Source: Ectocarpus siliculosus (taxonomy: Eukaryota; Sar; Phaeophyceae; Ectocarpales; Ectocarpaceae). From it: 64,000 bases of DNA. This document shows, in pieces, positions 1 to 58,500 of the stretch. The DNA is taken from positions 35,047-99,046 of the forward strand of contig FN648443.1 of assembly GCA_000310025.1 (NCBI GenBank), written 5' to 3'. The notes under the pieces were generated by a model that saw nothing but the letters and a program-made list of their open reading frames with translations, did no database searches and was not told the origin of the DNA. Position numbers and translations under genes: made by a program. Numbering within the stretch: the first letter of the stretch is position 1; every line of letters starts with the position of its first letter.

Positions 1-146
1 CCTCGACGCTTTTTCGGGGACACCGACTGCTAGAGAGACTCCCGAGATATTTAGGGTTTTAGGACCTCCGAGGGACTTCAGCGGAATTGCGCGGAACCTC
101 CAAAACGCGGGATCCCCCACTGCATCGCATACGTACCACAAAATAG

Positions 147-3100
147 GTCTGCGTATCTGGTCATGGTCGGGGGCGTGGCCGGTATCCTGACGATGCTCGT
201 CACCGTGAACGATGCCACCACCGTCATCTGGGACACCGGGTTCGACTGGTTCTGGACATCTCTGTTCCTCTTCTTCATCTCGCCCGCGCTGTTCGGGAGG
301 TACATCTGCCGCGCGCTCCGCCTGGCCGTGGTTTTTCACCCGAGGGTGAAGCGTGCCCTGCCGTGGCTCATCCCGGTACGAACGAGTCTTCCAAGTCGTT
401 TGTGGTTTCTTTGTGCGGTGGCTTTTTGAGTCTTTTTGTGTGTTTGTTGTACGAGAACGTGTTGCGTGTTCTTCAAGAGCGTGTTTTTGGCATCTCATCT
501 CTATTGCTTCCCTTCCAATGAGAAAACTGATACTCTGTGCAAGATAGTCTGCATTCGTCAGGGTCTATTCACTCGGTTAGCGTCGATAACAGATGCCCTC
601 AACCGTGATATTACTCTCTCTCTGTCTCACGACGTCCTGAGATCAGCACATGATTCGTACGCTTCGCTACACACTACCCCCCGTGTTGGCTCTTTTGGTA
701 TGGAGCTGTGAAATTGCATTTTATGGGGCATGGGGGTTGCTCATGCGGTGTATCCTGTGAGCGTGTGGGCTTCGATCCTACCGTAGTCCATACCGTATAG
801 GATGTCCGCTGAACACTGTGTTGTTGGAATACCCCAAGCAATGCAATTCCATTGTTTCTGAACTACTCCATCTGGTACTTTTCCACCTGGGGTATATAAG
901 AAGACTGTACTCCAAGTGTGCCACACACGGATCGACCGACGTGTTCGCTATGCGTGGCGCGCCTGCGTTGTACGAGAGCGCAAGATCAAAGTCTCCGATA
1001 GCGGTACTTGAAGTATGGCTGTGCCTGCCGAATGCCAAACGGTTGGTTAGCCGGGAATCCCCATCGACCCATGGCATGTCTGGCTTGGTACAGCAAACGC
1101 AAGGATCGTGACCAGCTTCTGGTTCATCGTGGTAAAACGTAGCCTGGGCCGACGAGAACCCAGCATTTCGCTCCGTCCCGGCATTTTAGGGGTGCGAGGT
1201 CAGTGGTGTAACGACTACGACATGCCTTTACATGAGTCCCTCCCCCCCGGCCCGATATTTCTGCTGTGGTTCATCCATGTACTCGCCGACGACAGGAGCG
1301 CAACTACATGGTGGTGCTGCTGGTCGCCAGCGTGGGAATGTTGGCAATCCCCATCTATCACGAGCACACCTTGGGGGTTTGGTGAGATGGAGCACAATAC
1401 GAAACGAGAAAACACCCCCGGCCATGCTGCTGCACATGACGTTGCACACGTAGAGAGTGAGAACTCACTCTATGTTCGTACGCGGCTCCAGAGGTTCCTT
1501 GATATGACGACGATGGCCTTCGTCGCTTGGTTTCTAGATGGGCACCACGAATCTCCTCTACAATGATGGTGCTGCAGTACGCCTACTCTCTGCTCATTGT
1601 GCCTTAGTGGGTGTTTCGGTACATGAGATATCGCCCATCGCTCGTGCCTTGAGTGGTTGTTGTCGTTCGTATTCCCCGCCGCGTTTGCGCGCGTTCCTTG
1701 CCCAGGGACGCAATTTCGAAGCAGACCACTATCCTGAAGATTGAGGCCCGTGTGCTGGCGGTGGCGCTGGCTTGCATTTACCCGTTCATCAGGAACGTTG
1801 ACGATCTCTTCAGCATCAGCACGGAGCTCATCATTGTCACTGCGACCATCGGGCTCATCACAAGTGAGGCCCACGGAAGCCGATGTGGACAGCCTCGTCC
1901 ACACAGTAGCACCCCCCGTGTATTTTTGCTATTCCTAACCCGAAGTGTAAGTGTGGTTCGTTAATAGCACCAGTTCCGTCTCCTTGTCATCCTTGTCGTC
2001 GAGACCTAGCCTTATAGCACGGCGCGATTCTCAGATAATAGATAAAATTAGACCATCTGACTGGGTTGACTGGTCAGATGGTCTAATTTTATCTAATAAA
2101 AGATATACTCAGAGCTCGTTAGCACCCGGCTGGGACACATCGAGTTAGTGAGTGAGTAGAGATCTCCGGGGCTGGACCCCTCGCCACACGCTGATCGGTA
2201 CATAAACGGTGCTTTTTTTTGTAAGTGGACCGCTGGGATTCGAACCCGTGCGTGGAACTTTGTGTAAGAACACTTTGTCCTGACCATTAGACCACTATTA
2301 TAAGTGCTCAGTGGTCTAATGGTCAAAGCTTTTACACAAAGTTAGTGGTCTAATGGTCAAAGCGTTCTTGCAGTTGGTCATGCGCACGGTTTCGGATCCC
2401 GGTGGTCCACCTACAGAGAGAATCACCATTTGTTTACGAAACAGCAACGAGTGGCGGAGTCCGGCCCCGGAGACCTCTACTCACAATCCCAGTGATTGAG
2501 CCGGAAGGCCATTTGTCCCAGCCGGGTGCTCACAAGCTCTGAGCATATATTATATTAGATTAAATTAGACCATCGGACCAGTGCTCAGATGTTGACTGGT
2601 GAGACCCATGTTGATGGTTTCCAAATCTTTATCTTCCTTTCTTTGGACAAATGCTGACTTTTTCGACCTTTTGGGCAGTCTGCCTCCCGAACGCATGCGA
2701 ATCAGCTGTTCGACCTTTGAGAATAGTCACAGCTTTGCCTGAGATGTATACAGGCCGCCTATTTGTTTCGCCAGGGTCCACGTTTGATTTTTTTCCAGCA
2801 GAGCAAAATGTGCAAGATTCGGCCGAAAGACAACCTCGGAGCAAATCTTGGGCCAAGATCTGTCCAAAAGCTGGTGTTGGAAAAATCTTGCGTGAAAATT
2901 GCGCATGTTGCAAAAATCAAACGTGGGCCCTGGCGAAACATATAGGCGGCCTGTATACATCTCAGGCAAAGCTGTGACTATTCTCAGAGGTCGAATAGCT
3001 GATTCGCATTCGTGGAGGCAGACTGCCCAAAAGGTCAAAAAAGTCAACATTCGTCCAAAGAAAGGAAGATAAAGATTTGAAAATCATAAACATGGGCCTT

Positions 3101-6100
3101 AGATGGTCAAATATTATCTAGTATCAGAGGTCGGTCGAAATGCCTCGACGCGCGCATTGCTCTCTTCATCGCAGGTACGTTGACCCTTGATGGCGCGGCA
3201 CCCTACGCTCGCTTTTTGTCCGGTTTCGCAACTGCCGAGATTGTGGCGATGCGTTTATGCTTTTCCCTCATCATCGTCACCCTCTCCCCTCAATTGTGAC
3301 CACACCAGTCGTGCAGGAGATCGACGGCCTGTGGGGGGGGTGCTACGAGCGGAGATGGTTGGCAAACAACCTTTCGGTCTTGTTCATGATTGTTCTCTTC
3401 GGCGTCAGGTGTGCGATATTTGTGTATCTGCTCGTTGTGCGTGTGTGTATGGGGAGGGGTTTGTCTTCAGTCGATCAGATATATGACGTAGTTGAGCGTC
3501 TGGACGGAGGATTCGGTAGGCTTACTGCGGCCGTTTGTCGGAGTTGGTTTGAATATTGGGATGTGGTCGCTTGATTCGTCCAAAACTTGGGTTCTCTTCT
3601 TGGATAGTAATGAACGGGCTTCGGATAGGAAACATGTATTGAGGACATTATTTTGCGACCGCTAGCGAACGGGCGAGCGTGACTGCTCGGCACGCGCTAA
3701 CGCGAAAGTCGTGGTATCGTGACCTCTTGCTCTTGGACGTCTGAGTGTCCGTACGGCGTATGTATAGTGCACGGCAAGTTATGCAAACACGTACCAACAG
3801 TGACTTCATCACGCGTTGTCCCCAACTTCCAAAATGCGCAGCATCGTTGCCCCGCTGCGACGCCTAGCGTCGGATCCTTTCGCAGCAACCAGGCGCAACT
3901 ACGCCAATCGGGTACTGCCTGACCACACGGAACCCCACAGGTAAGCGACCGCGCAAGAAGGGCAGGAGGTTACAATAGTGATGGCAAGAGAGCAGGCAGG
4001 CACGGACGCACAGCACCCTGCGCCACTGAGGTTTTGCGGCGGCGTTTTAGTCGTGGGTCTAAAGGCGCTACGTAGGTCTGTGGGTACAGCCGGCCGGCGC
4101 TTTGTCGGTGGTTCTCCGTTGTGGCTGTTGAGTTCTGGTGCTTTGGGATATCACAGATTTGCTGTTCTCGTTCTGGCGTGTAATCCCCTTCATCGTTCGC
4201 CGCTTTTGTACAATACTCATATTAATATCTCAAGGTTTGAGAACCCCCCACCCGCGTACCAGTACGTAGGTAGGTTACAGTTGTTGCGTCTTGTAAAGGC
4301 AAGGGAGAGTCGAACCCTAGGTCGAGAAGGGTTATTCTACGAGGACACGTGGGGTCTACATTCGGAATTGGTGGTAGGGGAGGTAGAGGGGTGACGTGGT
4401 AGGCTGTCCACGCCGTCGTTGGGGGACAGACAGATGGAGGCTGCGATCGTCTGATGGATACGCAAGAGGTCGGGTCATCATCAATGTTCTTCTTCGGCAG
4501 CACAAGCTTGTAGCGCGTTGCCGAAGGTATCTGCGCCTCTCGGTCGTTTGAGTAGGTGCAGTTGCAGTTTTCCGCCTCCATAGAAATGCGTGGACATTAC
4601 CAAACCATTCACAGACACTAAATCGTATGAGCGCATCCCCTTCCCCCTTCATGAATTCGCTAGCAGCACGGCGAGAAGAGCGTCGGGGGTTTCGTCAGGA
4701 TTGGACTGCGACTCGTCAATGATGTGTAGCGAAAGCGAAGATGAAACCACGCTCGAGGAAGGGAAGCTTGGAGAGGCCCCAGCCAAGGGCATAACAACAA
4801 CAGAACGGCGAGGCGGTAGCGCTGGCTATGCCGCCGCCTCGGCCGCCATCGGCAGGGGTGTGATAACCACATCCAGCGCCGACGCCAACGGTGCTGTTGC
4901 TCCCCGCACGTGGACCGACCGGGAACCAACAAATTCCTCCGTCGTGACGACTGCAACATGGTTCGTATCCAACGACAACAGCATCGGAGGCAACAGACTT
5001 GATGCTGTCCGGAGGGGGCAATCGGAGAGAGGCGACGACCGCGGCCGCGATGGCGGCCGTCGAAGTCGCTCGCATAAGCAGGACATAGACTTGTGGGACT
5101 TCGAGCGGATTGTGAGGACACCCCTGCTGGCCGTCGCGTTCGAGGACTATTCCAAGAGGGCGCTTTGCCACGAGTCATTCCTCTTTCTGAGCGAGGTTTC
5201 TCGGTGAGTAAAGTCGGGGGGTCGGGGGGCGGGGGGGGGGAGATGGACATAGAAATACAGACAATAAGGATGGTGTGGTGGGAGCTATCGTGTTCTGATG
5301 CCGTGCGCATCTTGTTTGTAGCCTTGCTTTCCGACACTATCGTGTGCATTGGACATCTTGGTACGCTGCGGCCAGCGAACGATATCACCAGTCCTGCTGT
5401 GTGATACGAAAGTTTTCCGGGCACCCCGCGGACCCTTGCGTTTCGAAGGCGTTTCGGTGTCTTCTTCGAGTGTTCCCAGCGGTCTGCGCGGTCGTGAATG
5501 CCTACGTAATCGGCTTGAGTCACTATATGAAACCCGTTTGGGTCGCTGCGGAGTTCTCTTCCGCGCCTAACGCTTCATGCCCAGGAATGTTGTCCCTGCA
5601 TGCCGAGAAGATGTGGATGAGCATTCTCTTGAAACCGCGGTCGCGAGAGTAGAGTTTATTCGGGGGAAGATTGGAGCGGCCGTTCCGACTATGCTACTGG
5701 GGTGTGGTCCTGTTCAGCGGGCTGCGTACTGTACTGAGCTCTGCGTACTGTATTCAGCTCTGCGTACTCAGCTCTGTATCAGGGTGGTTGCGTGCATCAC
5801 CTTCCTGCCGCTGAGATCAGAACGGGCTGCTTGAAAGCGTGTGAAGGGGCAAAACGTATTTCGTCGTGATGAAACGGCGAAGCCCTCCTCACCGGCAGAA
5901 GGCCCGTCTCACCCGCATGCGGCCCGGCTGCGCGCTTAGGGACGCTTCTTTGTAGCCGCCTTGGCCATCGCTTCCCCGTCACGCTATGTACCTCGTGTGG
6001 ACAGACGCATGCTAAGCGCGACGCGGGATCGAGCGCGTGTCCTGGTTCTGTATAGAGGCTTGTGCTTTTCAAGCATCAGGCTCATGGAACACCTGCTTTG

Positions 6101-7678
6101 TCGATATTTTTCTTGTTGCGTACAACTCCGCAAAAGGTTTCTCCGAAAAGTCTCCTTGTGTCTGCCGATATATTGTCATCGTTGTTTCCCTGTGCGTTGT
6201 TGGTAGTTTTCCATATTGGAGCCAACGACAACACGGCATCGAGCTATTTCTACAACCAAGTCTACTCTGAGGGAAAAGTCGACCCCGACGTACAATCTAC
6301 TCTCGGTCAATCGATGCCCGAAACCCTGTTTCTCTCTTTTCTCGCGTCAGGTATCAGAACGGCGACTATGCCACAACGATTAGAGCATCTTCGGGGTCAT
6401 CATTTCCGACTCAGTTCGGTACGTTCTGCTACATCACGGACACCTTCATCAAGGCCGGCTCACCCGAGGAAGTAAACATTAGGTGAGCTGCAACAGGGAA
6501 GACGAGCACGACTCAAAACACGTTGACGTGGATGTTTGTACTCGTGTTTGCGAACGCCACCAAACCTTCATCTGGTCGGACGTGATGCTATTATCGCGGC
6601 GGCGATTGCATTCAAGCCAGTTCGGAAACGGCTTCTATTTCAGGGGGTTATAGGCTGGGTGCGAATTGGTCCAGCACACCATGCGGTGTAGTGCTCTGTT
6701 ATGAGCAAGGTACAATAATTTGATCTTCGGCGTTAACCAACATGAACGTGAAGCGAAGGGCCACGCCAGCTCAGGATAGGGCAACAAACCTCATATTAGG
6801 TCGACATGGGTACCACGTTTTTTTTCCAGGCTGTCTTTGAGACCCCACCAGTTCCTATCTACCCGAACGATGTTCCGGGTGGTTCATATCTTTGGAGATC
6901 CTTTACCGAAGTCCCCCCTGCTGGCTGTTCTGCTGCCTGACTTCGTGACAGAGGCCCCCGTTCGGTGCTTCCATGCTTTCCCCGTTGTTTTCTCGTACTT
7001 CAGCGACAAGGAAAGAAAGCTTATCCTCGCGTTGTACCACAAGGGCGAAGAGCTCTTCGAGGACGTCAACGACGCGGAGAGAAGGTAAACGGGAAAGAGG
7101 CATGACAGGAGAGAGCGCGTGTTGACACAGTTTTTATCGTTTCCGACGCTTGTACATACTCGCGTGCTTTTCCTTGGTCGTGGAAGATAATTGGTATGTC
7201 ATTATCGATCTCATTAGCGTTATCTCACTTTCCCGGACATTTCGAGTTAAGAGAGTGTTTTTCAGGCATCAAACCACGTTCATGTTTTCCGGCAAAAGTT
7301 TCTTGTTCTCCAAGCACCTGGATGGTGCGTGTGAAGGAGATTCTGTTGGACATGGTGGCGCCGCCGATCCCCTCCACCCAGGGTTAACGTAGATCCGTGT
7401 GCTCGTTTTGACAGGGGTGGGTTTAACGGCCATGTCCAGGCAAGGCGGCAGAGCTGAAACACCCCACCTCCCCCGTTAACCACAGCCTAAACCCCTCAAA
7501 ATGACGGCTTTTCAGGATGATTTTCAGACGAGCGTATCTGGCGGTGAAGCGTATGCTGGAAGCCAATCTCCTCCTCCGCTTTCTGAACACGGACCGCTTC
7601 AAGAGCTTGGAGATGCAGAAGGAGAACACCCAGGTTATGGTGGACTCCCCGCCCCAGGCGCGAGTAGTAGTTTCTTAG
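147..7678 (+). CDS. Gene A: 7TM-RGS receptor-like protein, 5' end outside window
   Basis: Predicted membrane protein with a multi-helix 7TM domain and a C-terminal RGS domain, which in known families speeds GTP hydrolysis on G-alpha. Exons supported by paralogue comparison and phase: 147-375 (two TM helices, ends at FHPRVKRALPWLIP), 1296-1381 (YMVVLLVASVGMLAIPIY), 1725-1863 (ACIYPFIRNVDDLFSIS), about 3175-3280 (FATAEIVAMRLCFSLIIV, 3' border unclear), 3317-3408 (WGGCYERRW then a helix), 3842-3940, 4664-5203 (linker and RGS start), 6351-6482, 7004-7084, 7315-7387 and 7516-7678. A further small exon near 1485-1545 is possible. Exon 12 reads into an in-frame TAA at 7385-7387 that gene C lacks, yet the last exon keeps an open RGS frame (MLEANLLLRFLNTDRF) to a TAG. 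Exon 1 would lie left of the window. The RGS call is firm; G-alpha coupling is inferred. Confidence 0.75.
2225..2295 (-). ncRNA. tRNA-like (SINE-type) segment
   Basis: On the minus strand a box A-like TGGTCTAATGG and a perfect box B GGTTCGAATCC lie about 45 bases apart, as in pol III tRNA promoters. The D stem can form. The acceptor ends do not pair properly and the anticodon arm is poor, so this is a tRNA-derived repeat or tRNA pseudogene rather than a working tRNA. Confidence 0.4.
2344..2412 (+). ncRNA. Second tRNA-like segment, inverted relative to the first
   Basis: Plus-strand TGGTCTAATGG followed by an imperfect box B (GGTTTCGGATCC, one extra base) and 'ggtggtccacc'. It mirrors the segment at 2225-2295, with an extra partial box A at 2322. 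The structure is too degenerate for a functional tRNA. Confidence 0.35.
2603..3123. mobile_element. Foldback element with ~190-bp inverted arms
   Basis: 2603-2793 and 2912-3097 are near-complementary arms: 'aaatctttatcttccttt' and 'tgtatacaggccgcctat' on the left return inverted on the right. The spacer is about 120 bp and contains a small palindrome around 'cttgggccaag'. The right outer end (3097-3123) is a diverged copy of the TTAGAT..GACCATC terminus. It lies in an intron of gene A and is absent from unit 2. Confidence 0.65.
4664..5203 (+). CDS. Gene A exon 9: acidic/Ser linker and start of RGS domain
   Basis: A 540-nt exon entered in phase 2 after 'gctag' and left at 'tctcg' before a consensus GTGAGT donor. 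The first about 130 residues are low-complexity, acidic and Ser/Thr/Arg-rich, as expected for a cytosolic linker after the last membrane helix. The last 35 residues (DFERIVRTPLLAVAFEDYSK then LCHESFLFLSEVSR) are the opening helices of an RGS fold. Splicing to 6351 restores the Arg codon of SRYQNGDY. Long antisense ORFs over this exon are shadows of its GC-rich codons. Confidence 0.85.
6351..7678 (+). CDS. Gene A exons 10-13: body of RGS domain
   Basis: Exon 10 (6351-6482, 132 nt) gives the RGS centre, TFCYITDTFIKAGSPEEVNI, matching the 'F...FI..GS..EVNI' core of the family. Exon 11 (7004-7084, 81 nt) gives SDKERKLILALYHKGEELFE. Exon 12 starts at 7315 (MVRVKEILLDMVAPP). Exon 13 (7516-7678) gives the final helix, RAYLAVKRMLEANLLLRFLN, then a proline-containing tail and TAG. 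Exons 10 and 11 have exactly the same lengths in gene C, and exon phases (2 in, 2 out) agree. Exons 11-12 put a 40-60 residue insertion between the EVNI motif and the last helix, unusual for RGS. The TAA at 7385 would cut off the last helix unless another donor is used. Confidence 0.8.
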
Positions 7679-11659: not shown

Positions 11660-14600
11660 CTACTGTCCCTCCTGTGGGGGTGGGGAGCCCATCATGGCCT
11701 TCATATTCTCTCTTTGCACCCTCACGTTCTTGAAGCGGTCCGTGTTGAGGAAGCGGAGGACCAGGTTGGCTTCCAGCATATTCTTAACGTCCCGATACGC
11801 TCGCGAAAATATCATCCTGAAAGTCGTGATTGAGTTTCGAGGTGTACACGTTGTGGTTTGGCGGGGGCGGCAGGAGGTGGGGAGTGTTCATATGTCTATC
11901 GGCTAGCTTGGCCATGGCCGCTACACCTAGCCCTGTCAGACGAGCACACGGATCTATATGAATCCTGGGCTTCGGGGTTGGGCGCCGCCTTCACATCCAA
12001 TAGAACCTCCTTCACACGCATTGTCCCGATGCTACAGTAGTGGGTCACACCGCCGAAGAACAAGACATATTCCTACATGAAGTGGGTTTCGTGCGCTGCA
12101 ATGTGCTCTCGAAATTTACGTGAAAGTGAGATACACCGCCAATGAAGGCAACAATCATGAAATATCTCTAGCGGGTATATACTCGCACAAACGTCGGCAC
12201 GAGCACTCGTGTGTTGAACACGTTTTTTTTCCCGCCGCATCTCTCCACGTTCACCTTCTCTCCTCCTCGTTGACATCATCGAATAATTCTTCGCCGTTGT
12301 TGTACAGATCGAGTATCAGTCTCATCCCCGTTTCGCTTAAATACGAGAGAACAACGAAACGAGCATGTAACGCAAAAAAACGGCCCTAGGTCACGTCACA
12401 ACGAACGGCAGGCCGCAGCCAATCAGCCAGCAGCAGGCAGTCGGTACAGCCACAGGCAAACAACCTGAATCCCGGAACCTTGATCTTGTCGAGAGAAAAT
12501 TATGGCGTTTTTCGCGCAGCCTGATAGAAACTGTGTCCACCTCAGACTGGTGTGAGGCTTGTAGCCTGCAGTTTTGAAACTCCACGTACGTGCTCGTACA
12601 AAATCGAACAAGACATTCATACATACTGAGACATAACAAGGAGCGCCAAGTACATCCAGACGCATCGCATGAAGCGCTGGATCAATCTGCACCCAGCCTT
12701 CCCTCGACCCTCGACACCGCCCCTCGAGAACGCCGTGTCCAACATAGCTTGAGTTCAACCACCGCTTCCACTCCAGCATCACACTTGATCAGATAAGGGA
12801 TTGAACCTTTACAGATATCTAACATGGAACGCTGTGTTTTGAGTCGTGCTCGTCAGTCTCTGCTACACCTCACCTTATGTTTACTTCCTCAGATGAGCCG
12901 GCCTTGATGAAGGTATCCGTGATATAGCAGAACGAACCAAACTGAATTCTCGGAGATGAAGCGGAAGATGCTCTTGTCGGCATGGGGTAGTTATTGTTCT
13001 GGTACCTGACGCGGGAAAGAGACAAAACAAGGTCATGGGCGGCGATTTTGCGACAATAGAGTTTATAAGTTCGGGCGGACCTCAACTTTGGCGTTTCTGC
13101 AGTATACCTTACCCGATACGGTATGAGTACTTGTTCCAAACATCGAGCACGGACAACCAACCATATGCAGCCGCGGTGACAATACTCCACAGACGATATG
13201 AAAGTTTTAGGGGCTCTCGGATTTCGTTTCGCAGAGTTGTATGCAACAAAGAAACGTCCCTACAATGCCTGCAACGCACGAGCCTCTTTACAGGCCCAGG
13301 CGATACGTTCGGTCGCACATTGTGAATCGCATGCACATCTCCCCGCTACACAGAGAACGCGACAGGGCGCGCGGAAATGCGGCCGTGTACAAACACGTGC
13401 CTTAGCGCGCAGACCGTTGTTACGTCGGCGAGAAGGGCGTTAGTATTTTCACATGCTTGAAAATCTCTCTGATCTCAGGGGCAGGAACGTGATGCCAGCA
13501 ACAACCTTATAGCGGAGTCGAGTGCAGTGCGCAACCTCCTACACAGGAAACCCTAGTGGCAAAGCTGGAATGGCCAACTCATTGTTTCCACATCAACTCT
13601 ACTCTTGCGACGGCGGTTTCAAGCAACCGCTCCTCGCCTCGAGATGGGAAGGGACAAGACTATGGCCTCGTAACCGTTTGGGGGCATCAACCGTTAACGG
13701 TGGAAGAGCACTCCTCACCGACTCGAAATGGTTGGAGGAACTCTACGCTAACATCATCCAAATCCACGACTACAGAGACCGCAGGGAACGATCGAAGACA
13801 CCGTACGCCTTCGATAGTCGGAAGACAGGGGTATCACACGGAAGGGCGCAGAAACCCTTCGTTCACTGGCTGCGGTGTACGAAGGTATCCAATCCACAAC
13901 AAATGTATCGGAAAACACGGGCACAAACAAGATGGCGGAATGAGCAATATGCGCCGAACACCATGCATACCACCATATCAATCCTGATTCCTCTCATAAG
14001 CCACAGTAAATGGTCCCTGATTAGTGGCGGCATGTGCCTGCCGAAACTTTGGCACTATACCGGGCACAGGCGCTATTCAATCGACATTCCGGAGGGACCA
14101 TTGCTGCAAGTATCTGCCCATCTATTTCCCTCGGTCCTTGGGCTTTACTCACCGAGAAACCTCGCTCAGAAAGAGCACCGACTCGTGGCAAAGCGCCCTC
14201 TTAGAATAGTCCTCGAACGCGGCGGCCAACAGGGGCGTACTCGCAATCCGCTCGAAGTCCCACACCTCCATCTCCTCCCTATCCGAACGACTTCGACTAC
14301 TACAACCGCGGTCTCGGCCGCTGCCCCTCGCTCTCTGCACCCTCTGGAAAGCGCCACGCCTGCCGCGGGTGCTGTTGTCGTTGGATACGGAAGACGATCC
14401 CTCCGCAACGACGGAGGAATTGGTTGGTTCCCGCTCGTTCCACGTACAGGGGGCGACGGCACCGTCGGCGTCGGCGGTGGGTGCCGTAGTCGCACCCCTG
14501 CCAATGGCGGCCGAGGTGGGGACATCGCCAGTGTCACCATCTCCTCCTGCTGCTGTTGTTGTGTCCTTGCCCGGGACTCCTTCACGCTGTCCTTCTTCGA

Positions 14601-22500: not shown

Positions 22501-22599
22501 CTTTTTCCTAGAATCGCAGCATTTTCTCCGGGCCGGGAAACAAACGCTCTTTCGAGCGCTCTCAGGGCACCACGCTTATTCACTTGGTTTCAGAGTGCA

Positions 22600-41028: not shown

Positions 41029-41099
41029 GATATTAGATCAAATGAGACCATCTGACCAGTCAACGTTGACTGGTCAGATGGTCAAATTTTATCTAATAA
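41029..41099. repeat. Hairpin terminus of the MITE family in unit 2
   Basis: About 60 nt forming an almost perfect hairpin around 'gaccagtcaacgttgactgg', flanked by TTAGATCAAAT and its inverse. It is the counterpart of 2037-2098. The rest of the element is truncated at about 41238, where unit 2 jumps to sequence matching unit 1 at 3676. Confidence 0.7.
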
Positions 41100-42762: not shown

Positions 42763-45649
42763 GTGAGTAAAGTCGGGGGGGCGGGGGGCGGGGGGGGAGA
42801 GATGGACATAGAAATAAAGACAATAAGGATGGTGTGGTGGGAGTTATAGTGTTCTGATGCCGTGCGCATGTTGGTTCCCTCATCTTGTTTGTAGCCTTGC
42901 TTTCGGACACTATCGTGTGCATTGGACGTCTTGGTACGCTGCGGCCAGCGAACGATATCACCAGTCCTGCTGTGTGATACGAAAGTTTTCCGGGCACCCC
43001 GCGGACCCTTGCGTTTCGAAGGCGTTTCGGTGTCTTCTTCGAGTGTTCCCAGCGGTCTGCGCGGTCGTGAATGCCTTCGTAATCGGCTTGAGTCACTATA
43101 TGAAACCCGTTTAGGTCGCTGCGGAGTTCTCTTCCACGCCTAACGCTTCATGCCCAGGAATGTTGTCCCTGCATGCCGAGAAGATGTGGATGAGCATTCT
43201 CTTGAAACCGCGGTCGCGAGAGTAGAGTTTATTCGGGGGAAGATTGGAGCGGCCGTTCCGACTATGCTACTGGGGTGTGGTCCTGTTCAGCGGGCTGCGT
43301 ACTGTACTGAGCTCTGCGTACTGTATTCAGCTCTGCGTACTCAGCTCTGTATCATGGTGGTTGCCTGCATCACTTTCCTGCCGCTGAGATCAGAACGGGC
43401 TGTTTGAAAGCGTGTGAAGGGGCAAAACGTATTTCGTCGTGATGAAACGGCGAAGCCCTCCTCACCGGCAGAAGGCCCGTCTCACCGGCATGCGGCCCGG
43501 CTGCGCGCTGAGGGACACTTCTTTGTAGCCGCCTTGCCATCGCTTCCCCGTCACGCTATTTACCTCGTGTGGACAGACGCATGCTAAGCGCGACGCGGGA
43601 TCGAGCGCATGTCCTGGTTCTGTATAGAGGCTTGTGCTTTTCAAGCATCAGGCTCATGGAACACCTGCTTTGTCGATATTTTTCTTGTTGCGTACAACTC
43701 CGCAAGAAGGTTCTCCGAAAAATCTCCTTTCGCCTGCTGATATATTGTCATCTTTGTCAGCGTTGTTGGTAGTTTTCCATATTGGAGCCAACGAAAACAC
43801 GGCATCGAGCTATTTCTACAACCAAGTCTACTTTGAGGGAAAATTCGACCCCGACGTACAATGTACTCTCGGTCAATCGACGCCCGAAACCCTGTTTCTC
43901 TCTTTTCTCGCGTCAGGTATCAGAACGGCGACTATGCCACGACGAAAAGAGCATCTTCGGGGTCATCATTTCCGACTCAGTTCGGCACGTTCTGCTACAT
44001 CACGGACACCTTCATCAAGGCCGGCTCACACGAGGAAGTAAACATTAGGTGAGCTGCAACAGGGAAGACGAGCACGACTCAAAACACGTTGACGTGGATG
44101 TTTGTATTCGTGTTTGCGAACGCCACCAAACCTTCATCTGGTCGGACGTGATGCTATTGTCGCGGCGGCGATTGCATTCAAGCCAGTTCGGAAACGGCGT
44201 CTATTTTCAGGGGGTTATAGGCTGGGTGCGAATTGGTCCAGCACACCATGCGGTGTAGTGCTCTGTTATGAGCTAGGTACAATAATTTGATCTTCCGCGT
44301 TAACCAACATGAACGTGAAGCGAAGGGCCACGCCAGCTCAAGATCCGGTCACAAACCTCATATTAGTTCGACATGGGCACAACGTTTTTTTTCCAGGCTG
44401 TCTTTGAGACGCCATCATTTCCTAAACATCTACCCGAACGATGTTCCGGGTGGTTCATATCTTGGAGCTCCTTTACCGAATTCCCCCTGCTGGCTGTTCT
44501 GCTGCCTGACTTCGTGACAGAGGCCCCCGTTCGGTGCTTCCATGCTTTCCCCGTTGTTTTGTCGTACTTCAGCGACAAGGAAAGAAAGCTTATCCTCGCG
44601 TTGTACCACAAGGGCGAAGAGCTCTTCGAGGACGTCAACGTCGAGGAGAGAAGGTAAACGGGAAAGAGACATGACAGGAGAAAGCGCGTGTTGACACAGT
44701 TTTTATCGTTTCCGACGCTTGTACATACTCGCGTGCTTTTCCTTGGTCGTGAAAGAAAATTGGTATGTCATTATCGATCTCATTAGCGCTATCTCACTTT
44801 CCCGGACATTTCGAGTTAAAGAGAGTGTTTTTCGAGCATCAAACCACGTTCATGTTTTCCGGCAAAAATTTCTTGTTCTCCAGCACTGGGACCCACTCGC
44901 AAGCACTTGGATGGTGCGTGTGAAGGAGATTCTGTTGGATATGGTGGCGCCGCCGATCCCCTCCACCCAGGGTTAACGTAGGTCCGTGTGCTCGTTTTGA
45001 CAGGGGTGGGTGTAACGACCATGTCCAGGCAAGGCGGCAGAGCTGAAACACCCCACCTCCCCCGTTAACCACAGCCTAAACCCCTCAAAATGACGGCTTT
45101 TCAGGATGATTTTCAGACGAGCGTATCTGGCGGTGAAGCGTATGCTGGAAGCCAATCTCCTCCTCCGCTTTCTGAACACGGACCGCTTCAAGAGCTTGGA
45201 GATGCAGAAGGAGAACACCCAGGTTATGGTGGACTCCCCGCCCCAGGCGCGAGTAGTAGTTTCTTAGGCGTGATCTTTATATCTAGACGAGCTCAATGAT
45301 TACGCGGGCTGGATTCCTTTGCGGGTTAGGATGGCACGGTAGGTTTGTCGGAGTACGGTTACTTTTTGCAGATGTGGGGACAAATTCAAGCGGAACGCAC
45401 TTCGAGCGGACCAGTATCACCGCCGAAAATATTTTCGTGAAGCGTGAAAAGGCAGGGGGTGGCGAGTGGGTTTTCCAGCTTGCGGGTAGATTGATGCGAG
45501 GGGATTGAATAGTTGATATTGACGCCATCCTCCCAGGCCTTCCTTCAGACGCCCGGGTCAACGCCAATCGACAGTGCAATAAACCACTCACATTGTCGGG
45601 TGTGTGTGCTGAGGACTTGGTTGATTTTAAGAGAGGCCGCGCGAGAGAG

Positions 45650-48502: not shown

Positions 48503-48823
48503 TGAAAGGTAAACTACGCTGGGGTGCAGCAAGCCCATGGTGGGCATTACTTGGGGCACTAGGTAGTCAGCCGTGATAGGCCGAGAGAGAGAGGTTGAGG
48601 TGGCGTTGGAGTAAGCGTTGGAGAAGGAAACTTGATTGGAGAGAGCGACGGCGGTAGCGGTGGAGAGAGAGGAAGTGAGCTGCACGCACGCAAGCCTCAT
48701 CACATCCGCCACGCCAAAAGGGTCCCCGTGACTGCACCGGTGGTACCCCACAACACACGAAATTCCCAACACGTATCCCCCTGGGATCCTCACGACCAGA
48801 TACTGCTGCGAGTATATCTAACA
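48503..48823 (-). repeat. 3' LTR of the copia element
   Basis: 321 bp with TG/CA ends. I count about 10 differences by eye from the other LTR, roughly 3%. The left flank is unit-2 sequence matching unit 1 at 11049. Confidence 0.9.
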
Positions 48824-49051
48824 TCCCCCCTGCTCGCAACAGTTTCTCACTGAAAAAACTTCGCTAACATCTGATATCTCAACCAAAAGACGTCGTTTCC
48901 AGAATGTAATATATATGCGATCAAGATCATGCCAAAATATAAGAGAGAAAACCAATTCAAAGAAACGCATATGCTGCATCGCGCGTAACGAATCCTTGGC
49001 GCGGAAAACGAAACAAAACCAAAATAAACTCATCAGACACACAATGAACAC

Positions 49052-51430
49052 TCACGCCAAATTCATCACAAAATCACGGTGAGACTCAAAAGCATCCTTC
49101 GACAAACTCTTCTTGAGAAAATCTGCACGCTGGTGCGGTGACGGCACGTGGATTACCGAAATTTCCTTCCTCTGTACCAGTTCCCGGAGAAAATGGTGCC
49201 TTACATCTTTGTGCTTCGAGTTCGAGTTCGAGATGGGGTTATGGGCTAGTTGAATCGCCCCCTGGTTGTCCTTGAATATTGGGATGCACGGCATGCCAAC
49301 CTGTGGCAGCATGAAACGCCAAACCTGCCTCAAAAACAAAACCTCCTTCACTACATCACCAAGCGCGACGTACTCTGCTTCTGTCGTCGAAAGCGTAACG
49401 CACTTTTGCGTTCTGGAAAACCAAGACACGGCGCCTCCTCCACACGCCACGATCCCCCCTGATACCGACCTACGGTCTGCTGCCTTGCTTGCAAAGTCCG
49501 CATCAGCGTACCCCTGCAAGCTGAATCCCTCTACCGTACCTCTCTGAAATGAAATACCGAAGTGACTCGTCCTCCTCGCATACCCTAAAATACCTATCGC
49601 TGCATCCCAGTGGACCTGCTTCGGAGATGCGCAATACCTCGCTACTGCCCTAACAGCATTCGCAATGTCTGGTCTAGTCTGAGTCGCCAGCCACATCAAA
49701 GATCCGATTAGCTCACGAAACGGAAAGTCTGTCTCTGCCTCATCCGCATCAAAATCAGAAAGCTTCACTCCCGAAGACATCGGAACGCTCTTAACCCCGA
49801 CTACTCCATACTCTGCTGCTAGCTCATCCGTGAAAGTCTCCTGAAAAATCGTCAACCTACCACCAGTCTCCTTGTTCCTCTTGTAAAAGCAGCCAGAATA
49901 CCATCTCAACTCTCCCAGGTTCTTCACCGGCACAGACTTGTTGAGGTCAGCGCCAAACTTGTCACATCTCTCCCTCTCTCCGACAGCAAAAATATCATCT
50001 ACATGTACTACCAAGATCAAAACAACACACCCATCCTCAATCAATCGAAACACACAAGCATCGGCCAAACACTGCTCAAATCCCAATGCTATCAAACACC
50101 TCTTTAGCATTGCATGCCACTGCCTAGGTGCCTGCCTCAAGCCATACAGACTCTTGCCTAATTTTACAATCATTCCAGATAGAGCTCCACATCCCTGCGG
50201 TAGGCGCATGTACACGTCTTCCTCCAACTCCGAACGCACAAAAGCTTGCTCAGTATCGAAATGACAGAGATCGAGGTTTAACTCGCACGCCAAAGCAGCC
50301 AACATCCTAACACACGAGACAGAAACGGTAGGCACGTACAACTCTCCAAAGTCAATGTACTCTCTCTGCGTATCACCTCTCGCTACAAGTCTCGACTTAA
50401 CCTTAGTGGGCCACCCAAACTCATCTGCCTTCCAATCGAATACCCACTTAGCGTTAATTGCATTCTCCACTAATTGCTACTTTGCCGGAGTAAAAGTCCC
50501 CGCTTCCAACAAGCCGTAAAACTCCCTTTGCATGGAGTCGCCCCCGAGGTGTCGGTGCTCCGACGCCATGGCCTCGTTGTAGCTCTTTGGAACACGAAGG
50601 TCGCTAGCCTGACAGTGCGGAAGGTCAGGGCGTTGCTCCGGTGGGCGCTGGTCTCGCAGCATGGCGTCAATGTCTTCCCGGTTGGCGAGAAGCGTGGCAA
50701 ATGCAAGTGGAAAGCCAGCTCCTCCAGCCCCCGGGTCGACCGCTGCGAGTGCTCCCGCCTGCTCTCCTCCCTCCGCTCCCCCCGGCTCCCTGCGCTCCTC
50801 GTCCACCGCGCTCCGAGTCTCCAAGATCGACACCAGAGTGTTCTTGTCTAGCATCGAGACGAGACCTGTGCTGTGCCTGGTCCCCGATCTTGTGCGGCTC
50901 GGCAGCCGCGGGTCTGTCATACCCTCGGCCTTCTTACCCGGGCGAAGCTGCCACATGGCGTGAGCCGTAAGCGGGGGCATCGCGTGGTCCGGCGGCGGCG
51001 GCTGGGCTGGATCGGGAGTCGCTGACGGTGATGTCGAGGCGACAGAAGGCGGAGCTGGAGCGGGAGGTGGAGCGGACGACGGCGTGGGCGCTGGCGGCGG
51101 CGTGGCGGCGGTCGAAGGCGTCGGGACTGGGCCAAAGTTGATCGAGACGACCGGCGGCGTGAACGGGGGGTGCGTCGGCGCAGCGGTGATACCAGCGGAA
51201 CCCCCCTCGCCGGCTGGCGCCGACGTCACCCACGATACGTTGTTGGTGTAGACGACGCGGCCGGTGGACGCCTTGAGGACCTTGACGGTGACGCTCGGGT
51301 GGTTGTCCCCGCGGTTCAGGTAGTAGCAGAGGGTGGCCTGGTCGTCGAGCTTGGTGCGGCGATCCTCACGCATGAAGCCGGGCTGGAAGAACGGCAGCAC
51401 GCGGAACGGCCCCTGCTCGCCGGTGAACAT
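49052..51430 (-). pseudogene. pol: copia reverse transcriptase and RNase H, one TAG stop
   Basis: The 51430-50477 part is the end of integrase (MFTGEQGPFRVLPFF; KLDDQATLCYYLNRGDNHP) and a long Pro/Ala linker, ending at TAG 50479-50477. The 50470-49052 part has reverse transcriptase (KWVFDWKADEFGWPTKVKSR; LCHFDTEQAFVRSELEEDVY; LYGLRQAPRQWHAMLKRCLI; the catalytic VVHVDDIFAVG) and RNase H (RRSVSGGIVACGGGAVSWFS; VTLSTTEAEYVALGD; IFKDNQGAIQLA), ending TGA. From 52654 to 49052 the frame is single and broken only by the three TAG codons. Confidence 0.92.
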
Positions 51431-51475
51431 CTCGTGCGGCGAGCATCGCCCGGGGTTGGCCTTGGTCGCCGACTA

Positions 51476-52654
51476 GTTGAGAGCTTCGGCGGCCCACTTC
51501 GCTGATTCCATCCAAAGACGGTCACCGCGCTGGTCGAGGCCGGGGATGGAGGCGAAGTCGACGGTGAACACACGGCCAGCGCTGCGGCGGGCGGCCATGC
51601 CGGCCTTCATAATCCGCCAGATGGCGCTCTCGACGACGCCGTTGTACTTCGGAGAGCCAGGCGGGGTGAACTCGACGCCGATGCCGTTGTCGTCGCAGAA
51701 GTGCCGGAAGTCGCCACGGGTCTACTCGGTGCCGTTGTCGACGCGGAAACACTCTATGCGCCCGAGGTCGTACCGCCCCACGTCCGCCAGCAGCCTTTTC
51801 GTTGCCGCCAGCGCGTCGGACTTCCGCCGGAGACCCAGCCTTTTCGTTGCCGCCAGCGCGTCGGACTTCCGCCGGAGACCGTAGACCTTGTTCCACCACG
51901 AGGCGCTGTCGACGGCGACGAACAGGTAGAGGTTGCCGCCCAGGGAAGGCACCAGCGGTCCACACAAGTCCAGGAGAACACGCCCGAATGGCTTGGACGC
52001 CCGCGCTCCCGGCCCCCGCGGCATCGACGCTCGCCTGCCCTTCGCCTTCATGCAGTCCGTGCACGGTTCCAGCTCGCTTGTGAGAGTGATGCCCCTCTGC
52101 CGAGCAGTTTCTCTCAAAAACGGTTCACAAGCGTGTGGGAGGGAACGGTGGAAGCGGTTGATGTCCACGGACTGATCGGTTGAACCAAGAGCAAAGGGGG
52201 ACGCACCAGGGCCAAGCGCGGCCGCACCGAAGTCAAAATCAGCACCCCCATCAAAACCATCCAAAACAGCAGCCACACGCGCAGCACCAGTCTCAGGGAT
52301 AAACGCGGGGAAGAACTCTTGGTACGGGGTGTCATCATAGCCATCCATGAGCTGCTCGTCGGTGAGCACACTCGTATCTCCAAGATCCATACCCGGAAAA
52401 GTACCCACACACACAAACTCGGACGCCGAAGAAGGTACTACGCCGGCAGAGCCGGCGGGCGGGACGCTCTCACTCGCAGGTACTACACTGGTGGGACCAG
52501 TGGGCGTGACGCTATCAGTCGAACGTACTACGCTGGTGGGACCAGCGGGCGTGACGCTCTCACTCGAAGGTACTACGCTAGCAGAGCCAGCGGGAGGAAA
52601 CGCAACACTGACACCAATGATATCGCGGAGCCCCCGCTGGGGGAAGGGGAACAC
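51476..52654 (-). pseudogene. copia integrase, with TAG stop and 45-bp internal duplication
   Basis: An N-terminal HHCC-type finger (RFHRSLPHACEPFLRE; LEPCTDCMKAKGRR) is followed by the catalytic core (FGRVLLDLCGPLVPSLGGNL; FRVDNGTE; PPGSPKYNGVVESAIWRI). It carries D in LLDL, D in VDNGTE and the distal E in VVES. The GLRRKSDALAATKRL segment is present twice (45-bp tandem repeat at 51790-51880). TAG at 51724-51722 interrupts the core after DNGTE, and TAG at 51475-51473 follows AEALN. The upstream part holds short T/S/P-rich tandem repeats. Confidence 0.85.
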
Positions 52655-53090
52655 GAATCGGGGGCATTCACGAATGCGGGCAAAGCAGCAGAGTCTACTT
52701 CAATCGCAGATGGGTCGTAAGGCAACCGCACAGCATAAGCGGCAGACGCTTTCTCCTCTCTAGCAAACAGCAGTCCATTTTGTAAAGTCGCACCACGCTC
52801 GTCTTGAAGGATTTGTTGGTTGAGGGAAACAGCATGCGTGGCGAACAGGTTGAAATTCAGGCTTTCCACTACAGATGCGTCTGTCAGCTTCACACACATC
52901 GTCGTTTGTTCGCCATTCTCATCCTCCTGAAAGAAGCTAAGGTTGATGCTACCGATAGCTTGCACTTCTAGCAGTCGACCATCGCCTACGACGACATACT
53001 TCCTATTTGCGGGGATCTCCTGCAGGTCGTACATGTGTAGGCTACTGTTGGTAAAACTGTTGCTTGCACCTGAATCAGCTACCCATCTCT
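52573..53090 (-). pseudogene. copia protease region
   Basis: ERWVADSGASNSFTN just upstream of 53034 is the aspartic protease active-site block (D-S-G-A-S) typical of copia. It is followed by KYVVVGDGRLLEVQAIGSIN and a beta-rich domain. The frame is +1 relative to the end of gag (AAG-TGA-GGG) and differs again from the integrase frame, so at least one shift on each side is needed. It cleaves the polyprotein in active elements. Confidence 0.75.
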
Positions 53091-53107
53091 CGCTACCAGG
53101 CGGCCCC

Positions 53108-55099
53108 TCACTTTATTCCACACTCAGCAAAGACGAAGCAGGCAGGCTCAACTCCAATCGTCACTCCTATCCTACCAAAACAATCTTCGGGGTGAGACTT
53201 GCCTAGGGGCACCGATTGTGCCGTGCAGAGGTGGAGGTAGCCCGAAGATGGAGGCGCGCCAGGAGAAGGGGTAGAGGACGAGGAGGAAGCGGTGCTGCTG
53301 CTGCTCGCGGGGGGGGGCTGACGTGGCTGCTCGGATGACGAATCTTGGCCGGCGGGAGGGTAGTAGACGTAGTGGATCCCGCCGTCAGATGAACGGCTAT
53401 CTTCGTACCCGGAGGAGTAGCTGTAGCTGTCCCCGCCGCCGGCGTAGTGGGCGTACCCGGCGTCGTGGTAGCCGTCGTCGTAGGAGTAGCCCGTCGTAGT
53501 AGTCGCCGTAATCTTCGTAGTAGCCACCATCATCGTGGGCGTAGTACACAACGTACCCCTGCTCTCTTCCGTGGCCAGGACGCGCGTGCCCCGGGCCTCT
53601 CCCTGCCCGCTCTCTCTCGGCACGACCGTCGCTGCTGTGGCGTCCCGCGGGCCCACGACCCCCCGTGTGACGCCCCAGACGACCACCAGGCCCAAGTCCA
53701 CGAAGAGGTCGCGGGGGGGGTGAGGCTTGGCTCCAGCCACCGCCACCATGACCGGTGTGGTGCTGCTGCTCTATCCTCACCCATCGCCCGCCACCGCGGC
53801 CGGGCCCCGGCGGCGGTCTACCCCCTCGCTGGCTACCGCCGCTACCGCGACTGCCGCCGCCCGAGCGGCGTTCCTCGGCGCCCTCTCTCGAACGCGCGCG
53901 CCGCAGTTGCTGGTGGAAACGACACTGCTCGTTGGTGTGGAGTTCGGACTGGTGGTAGCGGCAAAATCCGTCGGGGTCGTCGTTGAACACGTCACTCTTT
54001 TTCTTCTCTCCGTCACGATCTGGACCGTGAGCTGCTCCGTGGCAGCCGTCTTGACCCCCAGATGCCCCCCCACTGCCCCCGCCGCGCCGGCCCATGCCGG
54101 ACGCGGCGAGAGCGATCTCCACCTCGCGCCTCTCCCCCTTGCTCCTCTCGCGCTCCATCTCCGCGTGGGCGTCCCTCACCACAGTCTCAAGGGTACGCAA
54201 CGTCAGGACATCATGGGCAAGCAGTATTCCTTTTTGCACGACATACAACGAAGAGGGAAGGCCACGAGCAATGTCTTTGTTGGCATCTGTTTCATCCTTA
54301 ATCGTGCCCACAGATGCTAGACGCAGGCGAAGGGCTTCTGCGCGGGCAATATAGTCCTGTGGACTCTCCGACTCTTTCATCTCCAACTCCTTCCAGTCCT
54401 GCTCCAACCTCGACTTTTCTGACTGCTTCTTCTCTTGATAGAACTCGGTCACAATTTTCCAGGCTTGTTGTGGACTCTCACACGCCAGAATCAAACTCTG
54501 AATCGGGGGGTACAAGACCTTGCTGATGAGAATATTCCATAGTTTGAAAGACTTGTCTACCACGTTATTGCCAAAAAGTCTCCGAAGCTCTGCTACATTC
54601 ACACCGCTCTTTCCAACCTTGACGTCGACCTCCAGTTCCAACGCATCATGCACACCCTCCTCCTGAAAACATGAAATCATCTTACTACGAAAAATATCAC
54701 ACACAATATACAAGTCCTGCTCCTTCTTCACGCTACCAAGCCAAGGTTCTATTTCTGAGCCAGGATTGACACGTAACGTGCCTGAGCGGGCAAAGCCCTG
54801 TTGTTGAGCGATGGCCTCCGCTGTCGCCTTAGCCGCTTGCGCCACGATGTGTGCGACGCTGCTGGGGTCGTTGAATGTGGCTGGTGTACCCTGGCTGGAG
54901 GGTGATGGTTGGTTACCCGTAGGTGGAACTGGGTTGCCGGCTGGAGTGGCTGGGTTGCCGGCTGGTGGTTGGGCAATGGTGACTTCACCCTCGTTGATCC
55001 TGTTGGCTTCGAGCTCGGCTTGCACTCGTTGCTGGACGATCTCCTCCACTTTTTTTGTAGCTCTTCCCCGCTGAGGGCGGAGAGGTCGACGTCCTCCAT
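53108..55099 (-). pseudogene. gag: copia gag, frameshifted
   Basis: Likely start at 55099 (MEDVDLSALSGEELQKK). An A-run near 55050 must be shifted to enter the long frame KVEEIVQQRVQAELEANRIN. The body has the copia gag core (QAWKIVTEFYQEKKQSEKSR; WKELEMKESESPQDYIARAE; RALPSSLY-like block). A Cys/His stretch (CRYHQSELHTNEQCRFHQQL) stands where a zinc knuckle is normally found but lacks the exact CX2CX4HX4C spacing. A Gly/Arg-rich region follows. A second frame change near 53485 leads into a Tyr/Gly/Ser-rich tail that stops at TGA 53108. Known role: capsid protein binding element RNA. Confidence 0.75.
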
Positions 55100-55194
55100 G
55101 ATGTTTGGTGTTGTGGGAGTCTACCGATTGCGCGTGACTGCACAACCCCCGGAAGGCTACGCCCGCGCGCAGATACCGTGATATCGCCCTAGTG

Positions 55195-55515
55195 CGAAAG
55201 GTAAACTACGCTGGGGTGCAGCAAGCCCGTGCTGGGCGTTACTTGGGGCACTGGGTAGTCGGCCGTGTTAGGCCGAGAGAGAGAGGTTGAGGTGGCGTTG
55301 GAGTAAGCGTTGGAGAAGGAAACTTGATTGGAGAGAGCGACGGCGGTAGCGGTGGAGAGAGAGGAAGTGAGCTGCACGCACGCAAGCCTCATCACATCCG
55401 CCCCGCCAAAAGGGTCCCCGTGACTGCACCGGTGGTACCTCACAACACACGAAATTCCCAACACGTATTCCCCTGGGATCCTCACGACCAGATACTGCTG
55501 CGAGTATATCTAACA
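55195..55515 (-). repeat. 5' LTR of the copia element
   Basis: 321 bp. Its terminal CA is CG here. The right flank at 55516 is the middle of gene D exon 3. The DNA just inside (CACTAGGGCGATATCACGG) would be the primer-binding region; I do not recognise the tRNA. Confidence 0.9.
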
Positions 55516-58500
55516 AGCAGCGCCGCCATGTAGTTGCGCTCCTGTCGTCCGAGAGTAGAGGAAACACGTGCATAGGGGCACAGCAGACACACAGCGAGAG
55601 AGAAATTCATGGAAAGCAGAATGAAAGAGGGGCGGGGCGCGCGGGCAGGGAGGGGGAGCAGTTCAAGAAACGGCCCGAGATGGTGGCGAGAGAGAGGGCG
55701 CTAGCTGGTTTGTGAGTGGCATATGTTGCCAATGTTACCTGGGATTCGACCGTGCTTGGGGCGAGGAATGGCGCGCGCAGAGTCAAACAAAGCAACAACG
55801 ACATAACTGCTGGCTGCGTCGAAAACGAAATTGAACAGGCGTGCGGAGAAAGGAAAATAGAACAGGCGTGCGCAGATAAAATATACAACACACACGCTGA
55901 CGTGGAGCACTACACATCCTCGTACGAAAACATGCTACCATACGCGTAGTCCCACTTGACCCAAAGCCACAAAAATGGAAGCCTTGCACCGGGATGAGCC
56001 ACGGTAGGGCACGCTTCGCCCTCGGATGGAACACCATAGCCAGGCGGAGCTCGCGGCAGATATGGCTCCCCAACAGCGTGGGCACGACCAAGAAGAGTAG
56101 CAGAGATACCCAGAAATAGTCGAGCCCGCAGTCCCAGACAACGTTAATGGAACTGTTGAGGGTGACGAGCATCGTCAGGAGCGCGCAGACGCCTTCGACC
56201 ATGACCAGATACGCAGACCTGGCCATGTGGTATGCGATGCAGTGAAGCTCCCGGTGTGATGGCGGTTTCATTATCACGTAGCGCCAGGAGATCTTTCCAA
56301 CTGCTATTCATCACGCCACTAAACCCTCTTTTAGCGGTTGGTTTATAGCAGTTAAACCGGGGCCCCAATACAGGTCGATATCGCCCTAATTAACCGGGAC
56401 ACGGCCCAAGTTTGCGGAACAAGAGCCACGTTGTAAAGCTCGTCTTGATATGTGTCTCGTTGCAGCAGTGACAAGCTTACTTTAGGCAGAAAAAGTATTG
56501 TCGAGGACGATTCCCAATTTCACTTTGGCGTCGCGATAAGATGTAGTCTTGCGTAAGCACAGATTTTCTTACTCATATAACCACGTACAGAAGATTGTGG
56601 AGAAGTGAATCGCCGCCAGCCGGTCGGGTTCTGGTCACTACCCTTAAAAGCCTTCTTGCCCAGGGCAATCAAGAAGACTAAAAGAGGGGGAGATGCAGAT
56701 CTCCTTCTACACAAAGCGAAAATCCCCCAACGTCTGTCGAGGACGACTCCCTCTCTTCACATGAATGTGATAGTCTCTCTTGGGGGGCACCGCCACTAGC
56801 TGCGGCAGGTTCGAATGCTGCTGGACGAATCGGTACGGGGAGTGCCTGGGTTGAACAAGGAGGTATGTAGGGTTTGAAGCTAGCTGCTGTGGGACTGAAA
56901 AACCGCGTGCGTTCGTGCGAACGTCTCTCTCGCATGGTCGAAAAATGTCGTAAGACATTGGGCAGCTGAGAGTTTGGGCGCAAACGGGGGCTTTTTTCTT
57001 TCTAGTTGTCTGAGTTGGTTTTGCCATCAGTTAAAGCTATTAAGAATATGCCCACATATACTCTACTGTAGCTTCTTTCCATGGAAAAGCTGCCCTTTGT
57101 TGTCACCCAAATCGCTGCCACCGCCGTGTGGCTTCTCGTTAACCGCGGAGCACATTCCGCGCGAAACCCAATACCCTGACTCTCTCTGTTTCCACAGAAC
57201 ACTCGAAAAAACTCTCAATCAAGAGTGCCTCACGGGGGGTTGGCGCGATTGAATTGGGTAGCCGCGAAGCAGTTCAAATCCTGATTGTCTCTTAAAATCC
57301 TCTAGAAAACATGGTGTGTATTCTTCTACTTATTGTTTTCTCTACCCTACAGCCGTCACTTACTTGCCGTCACGGTTAAATATTTCCCGTATGTGTTGGT
57401 GTATACTTCCGGAAGTAAATATGCATACAGTACACGGGCCCGCAGAGAGATAAGAAACAAACGTCCAAATCGGGCGGAGGCTCAGTAACTCATTTCATCG
57501 GCATTCATTGTCGAGCACAGTTTATCTAGTACGAAGTATTGGTAGAGTTTAGTGTAGGATCCATCCTCCGTGAGCTGTGTAGCTATTACGTCTTCTTCGA
57601 CCTATTTTCTTCACTTTCGTGAAAATTGAGCCTCTCTGTTTCTCCACAAAATATTCCAAACTGCGGGGCAGTACGGCTGCTGCAGTCTACAGAATATACG
57701 TATCTGTAGACTACTGCATGTTGCTGTTCTACAATTTATCCAGCATCCGAACCCGGTGTGTCGATAGACTTTTCAGCGGAAATACTAGGAGTAACGAAAT
57801 AACAACCAGGGCTGCCGGGGTATCATATTTATTTACTGTTTGGTGTTTACCGCGGCGCGCGGTAAACGACACCTATACTCCTCCTGCAGTCGGGAGCCGA
57901 GGAGCTACAACAGGTGAACATGAGTGGCAAGACTCAAGAAGATGTGTTGGTTTGGTGTGAGGGGTGACAGGATTGATTGATGATGATGAAACTACTGCTG
58001 TACATACCTACATACCGCTATTTGATGCATGCATTCACGTGGCTTGCTTATTGTGGCAGACGTTGGACATTACGAAATTGTCTACCGTACGCAGTGATAT
58101 GCATAGCGTCTCAGTGACTCTACTTCGTATACGACCTCTGGTACCTGATATATGGTAGAGGCAGACGCACGTATACAACAAGCAGTCTCTGGGTCTAAAG
58201 TTGTTCTCACATTCATGGAGTAGTCTATGTATCAATCTCCACGGGTCGGGTGGGAAGGCACGCGAGAGTCTTTCGGCAAATTAGGCCAAGCTTTGCCACG
58301 TTGCCACGTTGTCACGGTACCACGGTGCCCCGTTGCCACGTTGCAAAGGATGCCCACGTTTCCAAGATTGCCCATCCACATAGATTGATCACAGGCCGAA
58401 AAAAAAATGATTCTGTTTCGGGTCTTCCACGTGCCATTTCACCACTCACTCAAGACTCACTCTACATTACATATGATGCATAGTCGTCATAGACGAAAAG

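Follow-up and report, generated by a model that had tools for sequence, protein, structure and literature searches.

The window analysed here comprises 64,000 nucleotides of Ectocarpus siliculosus (bases 35047-99046 of contig FN648443.1, hereafter contig C68, which is 217,709 bp long and one of the 492 contigs of a 189.5-Mb genome) and carries genes in which seven transmembrane (7TM) segments precede an RGS domain. In the same genome, a type III polyketide synthase fragment matches PDB 4b0n, a protein of Ectocarpus, at 90 of 90 residues. With a probability of roughly 0.85, it represents the right part of a single Ectocarpus 7TM-RGS cluster, a decaying tandem array in which the unit edge cuts one of two convergent gene types. 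The array contains at least four units in direct orientation, each with an A-type and a C-type gene: A0/C0, A1/C1, A2/C2 (genes A and C of the window) and A3/C3 (genes B and D). The window carries parts of the last two units; further units are located upstream on C68 and the first on contig C26. A preliminary description had proposed a tail-to-tail pair of homologous 7TM-RGS genes, A on the forward and C on the reverse strand, repeated once as a whole. The convergent arrangement and the 7TM-RGS identity were borne out, and an array of at least four units, probably bridging two contigs, replaces the two-copy reading and shows which copies stay open.

Array units, unit edges and the contig join

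For the comparison of array units, we used 139 kb of C68 (runs of N included) and 80 kb of C26, with the C0 sequence taken from C68:1-6026. A stretch equal to window positions 1000-1500 was found again in a genome search, at 97% identity, at C68:14482, C68:75041 and C26:4802899. Within C68, A1 and A2 are 21,564 bp apart and A2 and A3 38,995 bp apart, the latter interval being long mainly because of a 15.4-kb insertion, and A0 and A1 are about 25.8 kb apart if C68 continues C26. The unit length is about 21-26 kb with the largest insertion excluded, and is stated as a range, since a single interval of the regular kind could be measured inside a contig. The first 896 bases of C68 equal C26:4814199-4815094, the last 896 bases ahead of an N run, with 0 mismatches. 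Since this overlap is exact while the same stretch in two other units is only 99.0% and 98.4% identical (differences of 1.0% and 1.6%), C68 most likely continues C26.

Exons were named first exon, TM1 exon and then ex2 to ex10. At the unit junction, a C-type intron runs into sequence from upstream of the next A-type gene, and the same junction was identified at C68:9990-10249 (96.5% identical to that of the window) and at C68:31096-31359 (94.7%), with no N in any of the three. About 118 bases in the middle match neither donor flank, and have a 72% match at C68:112938-113053; the junction at C68:31096-31359 has an extra insertion of about 217 bp located 120 bp to its right. The right end of the homologous unit is placed in the TM1-ex2 intron of gene D. 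The inner units pass from this point through the 118 bases into what lies upstream of the next A-type gene, from which we infer that the unit edge cut the C-type gene. The left end is not at positions 1 and 39003, as had been suggested: position 1 is the window start, and the homology extends to 37062 and to window position -1948.

The edges had been described as cutting through first introns and leaving exon 1 outside. This is correct for the right edge at 58468, which falls in an early C-type intron and leaves the TM1 exon of D outside; the A side is uncut and the first exons of A and B are inside the unit, that of B being parted from its TM1 exon, also inside, by the 15.4-kb insertion. With the right edge within a C-type intron, the inner C copies are headless and the A copies keep their first exons. 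We suggest that two convergent neighbouring paralogues, A-type on the forward and C-type on the reverse strand, came to share one tandem-duplication unit of roughly 21-26 kb, with its left end upstream of the A first exon and its right end in the C-type TM1-ex2 intron. Each new unit copy, presumably made by unequal crossing-over, would then contribute one A-type gene complete with first exons and one C-type gene without its head. D alone among the C-type copies would have kept the TM1 exon, and its body would have been lost at a copia element.

Gene models and the state of the copies

Exons were derived from blocks conserved between A, C and two other paralogues. The whole gene A model has 11 exons and 614 amino acids and is open. 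Seven TM-like segments, taken as 19-residue Kyte-Doolittle peaks >1.2, are located in residues 1-310, N-terminal to an RGS domain at the C-terminus (PF00615; 27 bits, where the cut-off is 23.9; aligned to profile positions 2-116 of 117). Spliced models were required because none of nine single open frames of the block gave a Pfam match above cut-off. Likewise, a six-frame RGS search of the genome yielded seven hits and none in the cluster because the RGS domain is split over four exons. A search of the PDB produced three matches, none of them meaningful (best E 0.88). An alternative CCAG acceptor for the TM1 exon was dropped in favour of the common GCAG acceptor, being absent from copies A0, B, F and D. 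Judging from the domain order, gene A most likely encodes a membrane-bound RGS protein that would speed GTP hydrolysis on G-alpha, as in the plant 7TM-RGS proteins.

A whole-genome protein search, in which 82 of 92 candidates were scored, gave at least 77 exon hits, and 76 of these were on C26:4737485-4837836 or C68. All 75 hits with E <= 4.4e-4 were located there, and the two weaker ones were on C26 (E 0.0026) and C155 (E 0.0011). Family members outside the array, all on C26, are listed in Table 1. E and F are open over ex2-ex10; F also matches the first and TM1 exons, and no match to either was obtained within 4.2 kb upstream of E. The seven hits of the six-frame RGS search, all off the cluster, are single-exon hits on contigs C15, C14, C10, C11, C2, C9 and C20 (L025-L031), six of them above the Pfam cut-off.

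Two of the eight array copies, A0 and A2, are open over all of ex2-ex10, and the first and TM1 exons are open in 4/4 A copies. A1 has one extra T, a 1-bp frameshift that may be a reading error, in ex7, and the spliced model of gene B without ex5 meets a stop at codon 252. Gene C has, besides a stop in ex3, a frameshift in ex4 that is absent from C0, and neither its first nor its TM1 exon was present at E <= 0.1. In C0, ex2 and ex3 are absent and ex7 has lost 11 bp at its end, and C1 is without ex2-ex6. Gene D retains the first 26-29 bases of ex3 (to 55541), 3 bases of which overlap a long terminal repeat (LTR), and a first exon was looked for and not found. The second pair in the window is thus not a whole copy of the first: it is without 11051-17081, most of gene C, where a copia element is located, and without 2240-3675 including ex5 of A. 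In A0, about 2 kb extra at C26:4807296-4809269, between ex7 and ex8, is absent from the C68 copies.

Table 1. Coordinates of features in the window (position 1 is its first base) and, where a contig is given, outside it
Feature	Position	Strand	Remarks
Gene A (copy A2), ex2-ex10	147..7678	+	all introns AG/GT; 528 amino acids, open
Gene A exons	147-375, 1296-1381, 1706-1863, 3309-3408, 3842-3940, 4664-5203, 6351-6482, 7004-7084, 7516-7678 (stop)		
Gene A 5' exons	C68:32187-32337, C68:33164-33269		left of window
Foldback (inverted repeat)	2602..3099	.	ex4-ex5 intron of gene A; own inverted repeat, 84%
Gene C (copy C2), ex10-ex2	11660..17790 (low end approximate)	-	nine exons; broken
In-frame TAG	17063..17065	-	gene C ex3
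Unit junction	19954..20073	.	C-type intron joined to upstream region of next A-type gene; found 3 times
Gene B (copy A3)	20753..45267	+	first exon 20753-20903, TM1 exon 37128-37233
Gene B exons	39148-39376, 40291-40376, 40701-40858, (ex5 absent), 41406-41504, 42223-42762, 43917-44048, 44573-44653, 45105-45267		
15.4-kb composite insertion	21632..37062	.	between first and TM1 exons of gene B
Gene B deletion point	41239..41240	.	equivalent of gene A 2240-3675, including ex5, gone
copia LTR element	48504..55515	-	occupies place of missing 6.0-kb equivalent of 11051-17081
Gene D (copy C3) remnant	55513..58945	-	ex2 55990-56218, TM1 exon 58840-58945
Right end of homologous unit	58468	.	inside TM1-ex2 intron of C-type gene
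H	C26:4737k	+	outside array
E	C26:4764k	+	outside array
F	C26:4778k	+	outside array
Remnant I	C26:4796.8-4797.5k	+	two exons
G	C26:4837.6k	-	right of N run

Two pieces of the 15.4-kb insertion had matches elsewhere in the genome. A 1001-base piece had at least 41 genome matches, itself included (40 of 92 candidates scored, the others at 87-94%), and an 801-base piece at least 45 (40 of 115 candidates scored, the others at 84-98%). Positions 33481-35702 consist of tandem repeats whose main period is about 123 bp. Terminal direct repeats of 298 bp, 98% alike (29478-29775 and 36771-37068), bound a 7.6-kb segment and have no TG start and no CA end; four open frames of the insertion had no Pfam match at E <= 0.01. 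The copia element carries Retrotran_gag_2 (PF14223, 1.9e-10) and RVT_2 (PF07727, 3.7e-36) domains between LTRs of 320 bp with 9 differences, and its edge is inside ex3 of the C-type gene. A target-site duplication was looked for and not found, the flanks being CCCGG and AGCAG. Its absence would fit either recombination of one inserted copia element with another or a deletion that came later.

The foldback in gene A belongs to about 900 extra bases absent from A0 (146 bp in the C26 copy versus about 1040 in A2), and is partly visible in A1, where it is broken by an N run. Window positions 1000-1250, in an intron of gene A, are a dispersed repeat found across many contigs. Positions 60884-63032 hold 13.7 tandem copies, about 95% alike, of a 157-bp unit.

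Gene relationships and alternative histories

The first 20 kb or so of the window have 12,272 bases with a counterpart in the second copy. With gaps counted, the direct matches were 96.2% identical for 1-2239 versus 39003-41239, 95.8% for 3676-8120 versus 41240-45710, 92.9% for 8336-11050 versus 45827-48503 and 91.4% for 17082-19954 versus 55513-58468, corresponding to 95.3-97.0% over ungapped columns. Exon identity was 98.6% between A and B (1488 sites) and 77.6% between A2 and C2 (1577 sites), in agreement with the earlier suggestion that the direct repeat is younger than the split of A and C. The A copies were mutually 97.9-98.9% identical in their exons and C0-C2 98.4-99.0%, with 97.4% between C3 and C2 (229 sites). 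Between types, the values were 80.0% for A2-E, 79.6% for A2-F, 79.0% for C2-E and 81.4% for E-F. In a tree of nine sequences, C grouped with E at an ultrafast bootstrap support (UFBoot) of 72. After addition of H, I and G, the A and C clades were fully supported, with 33-57 at the nodes between paralogues. Both trees were made without C3 (gene D), for which there were too few sites, and G and I contributed about 230 sites each to the larger one.

The history proposed initially, in which an inverted duplication of one gene produced the A/C pair and a single direct duplication then copied the pair, would explain why nine exons of A have homologues in C in the opposite orientation and why A is far closer to B than to C. 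Yet E and F are at least as close to A as C is, so the inversion step is not shown, and A and C appear to be two of several old neighbours. Moreover, E, F, H and remnant I are all on the forward strand upstream, so that C may itself be an older neighbour, and the units number at least four, not two. We consider this history unlikely.

Less probable still is that the headless C copies are live genes that make soluble RGS proteins from ex7-ex10. These exons are open in C1 and C2, but the 11-bp deletion in C0 shifts the frame, and the C copies, with few changes among them, gave ratios of nonsynonymous to synonymous substitutions (dN/dS) of 0.83-0.93 over all exons. In favour of the main reading, dN/dS in the RGS exons ex8-ex10 was 0.23-0.38 in ten comparisons among the A copies, E, F and C2 other than A2-A3, with 0.24-0.38 between the types A, E, F and C2. 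In the TM exons it was 0.41-0.80 between types and 0.87 for A2-A0. Exons with an inner stop were skipped in these estimates, and A2-C2 covers 140 of about 220 TM codons.

An assembly artefact, with two haplotypes or one locus assembled twice placed in tandem, would account for the 100-N gaps beside the same AG microsatellite in both copies (8198-8297 and 45726-45825) and for the repetition on C68 of the last C26 bases ahead of the N run. Against this, the chimeric junction of C-type intron and A-type upstream region occurs three times without gaps and at the differing identities given above, four A copies were found and the copies carry private lesions. An artefact is accordingly very improbable. 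The reference strain Ec32 is taken to be haploid. The available part of PMC4333798 mentions haploid parthenosporophytes used for genotyping and does not settle the ploidy of the sequenced strain.

Some background on G-protein signalling comes from PMC3879662, which, in the part available, puts the G-alpha paralogues of Ectocarpus at six, in line with the main reading, and finds all of them expressed in gametes. It also describes sex-biased genes resembling G-protein-coupled receptors (GPCRs) and considers that the receptor for ectocarpene might be one of the GPCRs. That the cluster is a fast-changing gamete or pheromone receptor locus, in which each duplication added a whole A copy and beheaded a C copy, is nevertheless extremely doubtful, as nothing was found that links the cluster genes to the ectocarpene receptor. 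The male-biased GPCR-like gene Esi0104_0023, described in that paper, could not be placed as a cluster gene: neither primer had a match in the cluster stretches examined, and the forward primer was also unmatched genome-wide.

Several observations weigh against a single decaying tandem array of 7TM-RGS genes. The overlap of the contigs is just 896 bp, compared with an N run of 21.9 kb on C26 and 217.7 kb of C68. No true overlap was obtained between the last 4,663 bases of C68 and the 6,980 bases to the right of the C26 N run, where a match of 36 bp was rejected as poly-G, and C68:139047-213046 was outside the stretches compared. (The contig end at C68:217400-217709 is homopolymer-rich and resembles low-quality sequence.) The RGS score of gene A is barely above the cut-off. 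The splice sites were assigned here from sequence, so that the exon joins are predicted models, and in C1, C2, E and F the bases aligned with the ex7 acceptor are other than AG, with an in-frame AG nearby. Node support inside the A copies was 75-87. Finally, dN/dS was 0.51 for A2-A3 in the RGS exons (7 changes), 0.45-0.62 over all exons between types and within A, and 0.60-0.85 in the linker between types, and the C copies had 0 synonymous versus 2-4 other changes in ex8-ex10.

Comparison with known systems

The analysis locates a family of clustered 7TM-RGS genes in a brown alga. Among the matches listed in the open full-text literature, which leaves most subscription papers outside, no title or abstract concerned such genes in brown algae. 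Gene A resembles the plant 7TM-RGS proteins of the AtRGS1 type, which, according to the available parts of PMC3386157 and PMC3718340, combine seven TM segments and, C-terminal to them, an RGS domain in a single chain and have a proposed role as membrane-bound GTPase-activating proteins. The likeness is one of domain order, and the brown-algal gene differs in its 11 exons, a linker exon of 540 bases and several linked copies in an array.

The element in gene D resembles Ty1/copia LTR retrotransposons in its gag and RVT_2 domains and its two LTRs. It differs from simple insertions of this class in lacking a target-site duplication and in being located at a 6-kb deletion; the copia assignment stands, whereas a simple-insertion history does not.

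Receptor clusters are a class of tandem gene arrays with pseudogenes. The array shares with ordinary members of this class its direct units, private lesions and transposon-linked deletions, and is a real but ordinary gene cluster. It differs from them in that one of the two genes is cut by the unit edge; in each copy the first exons of this partner are lost and those of the other are retained. As such, it shows clearly how the place where a duplication ends determines, for a convergent pair, which gene is copied with its front and which is copied headless.

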